Shown: piece by piece, positions 27,197-29,495 of the stretch | How positions within the stretch are numbered: position 1 is the stretch's first letter | Layout of the letters: each line of letters starts with the position of its first letter | Assembly: GCA_021203905.1 (NCBI GenBank) | Contig: JAJQAG010000005.1 | Coordinates: forward strand, 1 to 53,557 | Origin: Coprobacillus sp. | GTDB lineage: Bacteria; Bacillota_I; Bacilli_A; RFN20; CAG-826 | DNA: 53,557 bases | Direction of reading: 5' to 3' | Translations under genes and position numbers: made by a program | The notes under the pieces: generated by a model | What the model was told of the DNA's origin: nothing | What the model saw: the letters and a program-made list of their open reading frames with translations, nothing else | Databases searched by the model: none

Positions 27197-28084
27197 ATGG
27201 CAGAAGTACATTGGTTCCCAGGTCATATGAGTAAAGCCTTAAACGAGTTATACGAGAAGGTACAACTCGTTGATTTAGTTATCCTTATGCTTGACGCCAG
27301 AGCCCCCTATTCCTCTATTAATCCTGACTTCCTAAAAGCCATTGAAAATAAGCTTAAACTTATTGTCGTCTCCAAAGCGGATCTTGCGGATCCCTCTTAT
27401 CTCACAATTCAGATTGAGGCCTTAAAAGAGAAGTTTCCTGCGGTTATTTCCGTGAACACTATGAGTGCGGTGGCGAAGAAACTCATCCTCTCGGAAATTA
27501 ATCGTGTGTGTGAACCCAAGAGAAAGAAAGATGCCGCTCGTGGTCTTAAAGCCCAACCCATTAAGACTATGGTTATCGGTGTTCCTAATGTGGGTAAATC
27601 CACTCTTATAAATACCCTTGTGGGCCATAGTGCGGCCCCCACTGCTAACACTCCAGGTTTTACTCGTGGACAGAAGTGGATTAACATCTCTGATGATGTT
27701 CATCTCCTTGACACTCCAGGGATTCTTCCTAAGGGTTATCACGATAAAAGTGTGGCCACTCGTCTTGCCCTTGTCGGGTGTGTCAAAGAAACTATCTTAC
27801 CTAATACAGAGATTGTCGAGTATCTTCTCGCGTATCTAAAAGAATACTATCCTGACACTCTCCTTGAGAGATTTGATATTGGAGAGATTAGTGATTATGA
27901 GTCAGTCATGGAAACGATCTGCGATAATCGTCATCTCCTTAAAAGTGGTAATCAATATGACTTTTCTAGAGGAGAGACAGTCTTACTTAACGAGTTTAAG
28001 AATGGCCTTATTGGGCAGATCTCTTTAGAGAGAGATTTCTCTTTATGCTTAACGACGAACAACAATTCTACTCCCGTAAAATAA
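27197..28084 (+). CDS. rbgA: Ribosome biogenesis GTPase RbgA (YlqF)
   Basis: 295 residues. Circularly permuted GTPase: the N terminus MAEVHWFPGHMSKAL with the catalytic-type His residues, G4 VSKADLAD (about residue 60), then G1 GVPNVGKSTLIN (about 130) and G3 DTPGILPK. The C-terminal domain binds 23S rRNA. RbgA is needed for late 50S assembly, including loading of L16. Gene order rplS-rbgA-rnhB is standard. The last 40 bases overlap the start of rnhB in another frame. Confidence 0.96.
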   Translation: MAEVHWFPGHMSKALNELYEKVQLVDLVILMLDARAPYSSINPDFLKAIENKLKLIVVSKADLADPSYLTIQIEALKEKFPAVISVNTMSAVAKKLILSEINRVCEPKRKKDAARGLKAQPIKTMVIGVPNVGKSTLINTLVGHSAAPTANTPGFTRGQKWINISDDVHLLDTPGILPKGYHDKSVATRLALVGCVKETILPNTEIVEYLLAYLKEYYPDTLLERFDIGEISDYESVMETICDNRHLLKSGNQYDFSRGETVLLNEFKNGLIGQISLERDFSLCLTTNNNSTPVK

Positions 28085-28650
28085 AATACATTGTGGGCAC
28101 TGATGAAGTGGGTCGAGGTCCTCTTTTTGGTCCAGTTGTTGCTGCATGTGTAATTCTTCCTAAAGATTATGTTAATGAAGAGATAAATGATTCTAAGAAG
28201 TTAACTCCTAAAAAGAGAGAACTTTTAGCGGACATCATTAAAAGAGATGCAATTGCGTATTCTATCGCCAGTGTGGATGCTTCCACAATTGATGAGATCA
28301 ATATCCTAGAGGCTTCTCGTTTAGCGATGCATAACGCCTTAAAAGAGCTTCATCATCCCTACGACTTAATTCTTAGTGATGCGGTTAAACTCGATGAAGA
28401 AGTAGAGAATATCCCTATTATAAAAGGAGACGCTAAATGCTTGTGTATTGCCGCGGCCTCCATCATCGCGAAAGTCTATCGAGATAATCTCATGCTTATG
28501 TATGACAAAGAGTATCCTGAATATGACTTAAAACACAACAAAGGTTATGGTTCTAAAAAACACCTAGACGCTCTTAATAAATATGGTCCTATAGAGGGAT
28601 TACACCGCTATAGCTATGCTCCTATAAAGAAACTAATTTCCAAAAAGTAA
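28045..28650 (+). CDS. rnhB: Ribonuclease HII
   Basis: 201 residues. The motif GTDEVGRGPLFGPVVAACVIL carries the first two catalytic acids, and later acidic positions fit LILSDAVKL and AKVYRDNLM; NKGYGSKKHLDAL is also typical of RNase HII. It removes ribonucleotides and RNA primers from DNA-RNA hybrids. Translationally coupled to rbgA through a 40-base overlap. Confidence 0.95.
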   Translation: MLNDEQQFYSRKIKYIVGTDEVGRGPLFGPVVAACVILPKDYVNEEINDSKKLTPKKRELLADIIKRDAIAYSIASVDASTIDEINILEASRLAMHNALKELHHPYDLILSDAVKLDEEVENIPIIKGDAKCLCIAAASIIAKVYRDNLMLMYDKEYPEYDLKHNKGYGSKKHLDALNKYGPIEGLHRYSYAPIKKLISKK

Positions 28651-28676
28651 AATATTTTCTCCCAGATTATGCTCTG

Positions 28677-28709
28677 ATCCTCCTAATGAATATATAGACA
28701 AAGGAGGAT
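28677..28709 (+). promoter_or_regulatory. Hairpin that would mask the dprA ribosome binding site
   Basis: ATCCTCCT (28677-28684) is a perfect complement of AGGAGGAT (28702-28709) with a 17-base loop. The right arm contains the Shine-Dalgarno sequence of dprA, whose ATG is at 28713. If the stem forms in mRNA the ribosome cannot bind, so opening it could control DprA synthesis. Confidence 0.6.
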
Positions 28710-28712
28710 TTT

Positions 28713-29495
28713 ATGTTATCTGGAAGAGAAATGCTTATTTACTTCTCTTTAAAATATGATGGAGATTGGCAAAAGATCTATCAAGCCATCTTAGAGAAGC
28801 AACAGATTGATCCCGAAGATTTAAAGAAGTCATTAAGCAATGTGAAGAGCAATGTTGTGACAATGGTGGATCCGGACTACCCAAAACAATTCCTTCACTT
28901 AGCGAACGCTCCCTTTGTCTTATATTACTATGGAGATCTCTCTTTAATTAAGGATAGCGATAGTTGTCTCGCCGTCATTGGTTCAAGAGAAAATACTTCA
29001 TATGGTAAGCAAGTCACTGAGGAGATTGTCTCGGGTCTTTGTGATCAACTTGTGATTATCTCCGGAATGGCGAAAGGCATTGATTCCATTGCTACGAGGT
29101 GCGCACTTACAAACGGGGGTCATGCGGTTGCGGTGCTTGGTAGTGGAATCGATTATTGTTATCCCGCGAGAAATCAAGATCTCTATGAAGAATTAAAGCA
29201 ACACCACCTAGTTATTTCAGAGTATCCAGCAAGCCTTGAACCCAAGCCCTCTAATTTTATAGATAGGAATAGGATCATCGCTGCCCTCCCAAAGTGTATC
29301 TTAGTGACTGAAGCCAAGTATCGAAGCGGGACTTTATCCACAATTACATTTGGTCTCCAATATGGGAAAGAAGTCATCTGTGTTCCCCATCAAGCGGGAA
29401 GTGAATCTCTCTGCAATCGTCTCATTAAAGAAGGGTCCGCACTAATCGAAAATGCGGAAGATGTTCTCGACGAATACAAGTACATTTTTAAATAA
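28713..29495 (+). CDS. dprA: DNA processing protein DprA
   Basis: 260 residues. The Rossmann-like DprA core is present: VIGSRENTSYGKQVTE, ISGMAKGIDSIATRCAL, AVLGSGIDYCYPARN, FIDRNRIIAAL and GLQYGKEVICVPHQ. The C-terminal winged-helix domain of longer homologues is missing. DprA loads RecA on incoming single-stranded DNA in transformation. The strong AAGGAGG before the ATG lies inside a perfect hairpin. No other competence gene is seen in the window. Order rnhB-dprA-topA is standard. Confidence 0.94.
   Translation: MLSGREMLIYFSLKYDGDWQKIYQAILEKQQIDPEDLKKSLSNVKSNVVTMVDPDYPKQFLHLANAPFVLYYYGDLSLIKDSDSCLAVIGSRENTSYGKQVTEEIVSGLCDQLVIISGMAKGIDSIATRCALTNGGHAVAVLGSGIDYCYPARNQDLYEELKQHHLVISEYPASLEPKPSNFIDRNRIIAALPKCILVTEAKYRSGTLSTITFGLQYGKEVICVPHQAGSESLCNRLIKEGSALIENAEDVLDEYKYIFK

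Follow-up and report, generated by a model that had tools for sequence, protein, structure and literature searches.

The hairpin that pairs with the ribosome-binding site of dprA in a 53,557-nucleotide stretch of Coprobacillus sp. DNA (the window) is, judging from its sequence, one copy of a control element common to DNA-uptake genes. We consider it reasonably probable that this element carries a competence promoter within a terminator-like hairpin, the 3' arm of which is formed by the Shine-Dalgarno (SD) sequence. The hairpin probably prevents unwanted expression driven from adjacent genes, and a switch-on signal in its loop probably starts a message that escapes the hairpin.

The dprA gene, whose name is backed by TIGR00732 and whose assignment to natural transformation in the earlier note is supported, lies in the order rplS-rbgA-rnhB-dprA-topA-xerC-rpsB-tsf (rnhB named by RNase HII models; rplS, xerC, rpsB and tsf by reading). 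The stem was found exactly where it had first been described (Table 1): ATCCTCCT and AGGAGGAT are perfectly complementary over 8 bp across a 17-nt loop, and the right arm is indeed the SD itself, with AGGAGG at 28702-28707. The distance from the rnhB stop codon (28648-28650) to the left arm, first given as about 25 bases, is 27.

Table 1. Features between rnhB and dprA and the two flanking genes, in window coordinates
Feature	Position	Strand	Remark
rnhB (RNase HII)	28045..28650	+	upstream co-directional gene; possible source of read-through RNA
TTTTCTCCCA box (-35-like)	28655..28664	+	also present, at a closely similar offset, at comEA and peptide-radC of this genome; putative promoter role
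Left arm (anti-SD) ATCCTCCT	28677..28684	+	covaries with the right arm; missing at the peptide-radC copy
Three-copy core CTAATGAATATATAGACAAAGGAGG	28683..28707	+	contains loop and SD; three sites in the genome, 0 mismatches
Right arm AGGAGGAT	28702..28709	+	holds the SD
Short U-tract, stem to start codon	28709..28712	+	TTTT here; TTTTTT at comEA of the same genome
dprA	28713..29495	+	ATG at 28713

By itself, the stem is only moderately unusual. The 51 nt around it fold at -11.7 kcal/mol (z -1.84) and the 85 nt with flanks at -25.4 (z -3.74; none of 200 shuffles as good), and the exact arm pattern with a gap of 5-30 nt occurs once in the 790-kb genome. An outer stem between 28655-28667 and 28718-28730 raises the fold score; we treat this pairing as coincidental because its 5' half is the box that is also kept at comEA and peptide-radC. 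Rfam returned no family, the single match (snR33) falling under its gathering score (22.1 vs 45 bits). Chance complementarity would fit the low z of the 51-nt fold and the fact that equally long arms, meaning perfect Watson-Crick arms of at least 8 overlapping the SD core, occur in 3 of 1707 control genes (9 of 129 at dprA). It is hardly credible, since the hairpin is conserved and covaries over the family and most of the order, a comparison that refutes chance and lifts the hairpin far beyond it.

For this comparison, 130 of the 191 family genomes with dprA were used, namely that of the window (our own below), the 29 other best loci and 100 taken by rising E-value with some skipped, so that the sample is not random. 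One locus at a contig edge (L120) was left out, giving 129 dprA loci with our own included; dprA starts were corrected at L025, L120, L139 and L153, and the controls were 1705 other genes in the same stretches, with starts picked by one rule. The SD is paired upstream with a probability above 0.5 at 125 of 129 dprA loci against 636 of 1705 controls, and pairing goes together with folding at -7 kcal/mol or below at 110 and 336, respectively. T-runs of at least 5 in the last 14 nt occur at 69 of 129 dprA loci and 43 of 1705 controls, and all three traits coincide at 63/129 and 10/1705. Because the genomes are related, p-values are too favourable; when each genus is represented by a single genome, SD pairing is found at 22/22 dprA, 20/22 comEA and 108/322 control genes of those stretches. 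Other families of the order (f2-f7) show SD pairing at 33 of 36 loci and the fold as well at 27, and the class families f12, f18, f22 and f23 at 9 and 5 of 24, with a T-run of 5 at none; loci from genomes already counted and the fragments L238, L245 and L246 were excluded from these counts. The gene rnhB lies directly upstream on the same strand at 119 of 130 dprA genes, with a median of 54 nt from its stop to the dprA ATG (118 loci). Two loci (L031, L021) are without the lock although rnhB adjoins dprA and no separate terminator was found, and two copies from related genomes (L024, L028) do not fit, the SD hairpin being absent and rnhB missing from the upstream stretch searched.

The earlier note had named loss of the left arm with retention of the right as the pattern that would tell against it; in the relatives, both arms are kept by covariation. 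Native halves fold better than cross-genome chimeras (mean -10.6 vs -7.7, p 3e-17), and pairing of the SD core is barely higher in natives (0.83 vs 0.77), so that the native match lies mostly in the outer pairs. A 24-mer has 26 copies with up to 3 mismatches in the genomes G029 and G160 (reversed control 0; six other genomes of the genus 0). The stem is kept at these copies, and the flanking pair reads CG in 7, UA in 6, AU in 3, UG in 2 and otherwise in 4 of the 22 distinct rows. No slid version and none of 500 shuffles reach the covariation score of this set, in which just one of nine pairs changes on both sides. Within our own genome, the outer stem pair is U-A at dprA and A-U at comEA. A DNA operator, in which the inverted repeat flanking the core is the site of a dimeric repressor or activator and RNA pairing is incidental, could likewise show palindrome positions that covary, and a promoter-like core does sit between two repeats. 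However, the arms of dprA and comEA differ in G025 while loop and upstream box stay, G-U pairs occur in 9 cells of the 22 distinct rows (columns 3/28, 5/26 and 8/23), and T-runs follow the stem and are scarce beside separate terminators; we hold an operator to be distinctly improbable.

The core CTAATnnnTATATAGACAAAGGAGG, which comprises loop and SD, was found at exactly three sites of our own genome, all with 0 mismatches though 3 were allowed (reversed control 0), preceding dprA, comEA-comEC and a pair formed by a 60-aa peptide gene and radC. The upstream box TTTTCTCC is invariant at all three; it is situated beyond the hairpin, some 47 nt 5' of the SD, and is conserved alongside the loop. 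Here, comEA is identified by PF12836 (8e-16) and followed by a comEC-like ORF (comEC by sequence reading only), and radC by TIGR00608 (138 bits, above cut-off). The co-directional upstream genes are rnhB for dprA, greA for comEA and an ORF read as valS for peptide-radC. At dprA and comEA, both arms are present, with no sign of a separate terminator. At peptide-radC, AATCACttcgGTGATTTTTTC, a terminator-like sequence distinct from the element, lies between it and the valS-like gene; there the left arm and the T-run are absent, box, core and SD are kept, and the SD is predicted to be free.

These copies change the earlier picture of a hairpin controlling dprA. Sequestration of the SD is backed by folding predictions and the arms covary; on the other hand, the hairpin is not dprA-specific, carries terminator signs in its T-run enrichment, and has a promoter-like conserved loop and box. 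Riboregulation of dprA only is too narrow, as the element also precedes comEA-comEC, peptide-radC and other genes of relatives, and an RNA-only reading fits less well with the upstream box and the arm-less copy. In a translational, riboswitch-like lock, the competence mRNA would carry the hairpin and be opened by temperature, a small RNA, a loop-binding protein or the ribosome finishing rnhB. The sequestered SD and covarying arms agree with such a lock, and loop conservation within the genome would make a loop-binding factor possible, but the conserved box lies outside the hairpin, box, core and SD are kept at peptide-radC in the absence of a left arm, and the T-run enrichment would be unneeded, which leaves this explanation unlikely. 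The box outside the hairpin, the conserved loop and the arm-less copy argue rather for a promoter whose spacer has been made complementary to the SD.

The peptide at the third copy (about 60 aa; L334:1311-1493, minus strand) ends in PGGW or PGGY plus a few residues and lies behind the competence element, with radC next in our own genome; similar peptides are encoded at L253, L257, L266, L283 and L290. The own peptide gave no Pfam or NCBIfam match above cut-off. It is a candidate competence-induced secreted peptide.

In relatives, the pattern CTCCT-N3-20-AGGAG-N-TTTT-N0-4-ATG occurs at 55 sites in 31 of 97 family genomes (reversed control 2). Among the 30 loci returned for it, 14, by sequence reading, precede dprA (1), comEA (5), GGW-peptide genes (3), C39-type genes (2), sigma-like genes (2) and an ABC ATPase gene (1); the other 16 precede other or short ORFs, some transposase-like, and not competence, peptide, exporter or sigma genes. 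The C39 domain at L265 matches PF03412 (4e-15), and the ABC domain at L282, a G029 copy, PF00005 (5e-36). The sequences upstream of the SD of dprA and comEA resemble each other more within one genome than between genera (mean local score 19.0 vs 10.2; permutation p 1e-4; 28 genomes), and a genome's own comEA is the strict best match of its dprA upstream sequence in 12 of the 28. The 24-mer copies of G029 and G160 precede dprA, comEA, comFA (by reading), exporters and peptides, among others.

In the scan, no long ORF begins immediately after ten of these 26 copies, two of which are explained by comFA with a non-standard start: at L278 and L287, a comFA-like frame runs from the SD and T-run into ATT or ATA with no ATG, GTG or TTG nearby, so that an ATT or ATA start codon is possible. 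The other ORF-less copies are L279, L284, L286, L295, L297, L298, L301 and L302, of which L297 lies near transposon-like sequence and L279 and L284 near repeats; some have a drifted 3' arm and no T-run. Several ORF-less copies keep the left arm and are without the U-tract, and the arm may have a further role. The interval from box to core also varies by genus (by-eye count: about 26 nt to TATATA here, 22 nt to TATTAA in G029), which is odd for one promoter class.

Where a co-directional gene lies upstream (151 sites), T-runs of at least 5 are rarer beside a separate terminator (3/14 vs 84/137 without, p 0.005), as are folds of -7 or better (8/14 vs 114/137, p 0.03); given the relatedness of the sites, these p-values serve only as a guide, and the counts exclude likely separate terminators seen by eye at L026 and at comEA of G035. 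The own dprA has a U-tract of only four T, and a terminator scan, which allows loops of 3-8 only, did not list its hairpin; no sigma-70 promoter was listed on the plus strand between rnhB and dprA. According to the accessible part of one study, a terminator about 28 bp past a stop codon works at about 90% in E. coli and one at 5 bp under 10%, a terminator few bp past the stop being suppressed by the ribosome (PMC4824070). In its stem and U-tract, and in a left arm 27 nt past the stop against those approximately 28 bp, the element may be compared with a rho-independent terminator behind a stop codon (PMC4824070, as far as accessible); it is unlike one in that the 3' arm doubles as the SD and the loop carries a common core. 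An ordinary rnhB terminator in a compact genome that reused its 3' arm as the SD, without a promoter specific to competence, would account for the T-run enrichment and the inverse relation to separate terminators. Yet the core is common to unlinked competence genes and persists where the terminator parts are gone, and we give this explanation little credence.

Based on these observations, we propose the following hypothetical mechanism for an element that consists, from 5' to 3', of a T-rich box, a spacer with the anti-SD arm, a loop with the core, the SD right arm, a T-rich spacer and the ATG: (i) in non-competent cells, polymerase coming from rnhB reads through the element and the arms pair in the resulting RNA; (ii) stem and U-tract would terminate part of this read-through RNA, and in the rest the SD would be locked; (iii) in competent cells, an alternative, ComX/SigH-like sigma factor would recognise the core in the loop as its -10 region; (iv) transcription would then begin at or just after the loop, yielding an mRNA that lacks the left arm and has a free SD. 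The sequence suggests a putative -10 region within the loop of the core and a putative start site at about 28695-28702. In an RNA starting in the loop, the SD is predicted to be mostly unpaired (centroid structure). If transcription does start there, the competence mRNA would begin past 28684, the second pattern that the earlier note had named as telling against it; the lock would then be confined to read-through RNA, and opening the stem would require neither a temperature sensor nor a small RNA nor a ribosome.

Tentatively, and with less confidence than we place in the nested promoter itself, we extend this proposal to a modular switch of about 60 bp used throughout the regulon, combining a terminator for the upstream gene, a translational lock on read-through RNA and a competence promoter. 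Its arms would drift freely while covarying, and its core would change from lineage to lineage together with the regulon; wherever a separate terminator already shields the gene, the lock would be lost. On the same tentative footing, its parts would do double duty: the spacer of the promoter would be complementary to the SD, the loop would serve as the promoter core, and the U-tract as the spacer from SD to start codon. In families f12 and f18 of the class, the dprA start has GTATATA within 40 nt at 6 of 6 and 4 of 14 loci, respectively (L187-L210), next to the SD and mostly without a hairpin; this sequence hints at a promoter adjoining the SD, possibly one that predates the evolution of the lock.

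As to the sigma factor, PF04542 had one match only in our own genome and indicated no second sigma factor, and the same model also misses the L271 protein. Sigma-like genes lie behind the element in G121 and G133, with TIGR02937 matches of 2.8e-13 (L270, above cut-off) and 1.7e-7 (L271, below). These genes (L270:898-1503 and L271:892-1506, both minus strand) adjoin genes read as rlmB and cysS, the neighbourhood of B. subtilis sigH, and they possibly encode an autoregulated competence sigma factor. If the proposal is true, the element would be a way in which small-genome bacteria silence competence genes sitting right behind housekeeping operons. It would also offer a means of tracing, by sequence, the competence regulon in an uncultured lineage, candidate peptide and exporters included.

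The set of genes behind the element recalls the ComX/SigX core regulon of streptococci, which includes comEA, comEC, comFA, dprA and radC, and bacteriocin genes are linked to competence in these bacteria (accessible parts of PMC5069739 and PMC5167698, respectively). The match comprises dprA, comEA-comEC and peptide-radC in our own genome, and comFA, by reading, in G029 and G160. In contrast, the cin-box YTACGAAYW differs from CTAATnnnTATATAGACAAAGGAGG, and the accessible parts of both papers mention no SD-locking hairpin (PMC5069739, PMC5167698). No common cin-box was found across the dprA upstream sequences, CGTA being unenriched (0.08 vs 0.09 per sequence) and CGAAT occurring 14 times in 129 sequences. 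Our literature search found no title or abstract opening describing the element, although its coverage of subscription papers was poor and absence is thus unproven; the accessible parts of PMC3364868 and PMC2988021 hold nothing bearing on it.

A close likeness is to locks on the ribosome-binding site (RBS) of read-through RNA, with which the element shares an SD predicted to pair with a 5' arm and a co-directional gene directly upstream. In the phage T4 genes I-TevI, segB, mobE, soc and e, the RBS is hidden in the long read-through RNA but accessible in RNA from a promoter placed so as to leave out the 5' arm (PMC2988022, accessible part). The T4 late-gene hairpins are alike in that the long RNA is locked and the promoter-proximal RNA free, with a start that was mapped in several T4 cases (same source) and is placed by inference here; they differ in that each phage gene has its own hairpin, whereas here a chromosomal competence regulon has a U-tract and a core common within the genome. 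For B. subtilis sigG, the accessible part of PMC5942855 describes a predicted hairpin that blocks translation of spoIIG-operon read-through and cannot form in the RNA from its own promoter; unlike our element, it concerns one sporulation gene and a stem of 20 or more pairs, and no regulon-wide copy is described there. By this comparison, the logic of a locked long and a free short RNA is already known from T4 and sigG, and what would set the present element apart is its regulon-wide use in competence, with a U-tract and a common core. If true, it would extend the logic of phage T4 and sigG to a regulon-wide and order-wide design.
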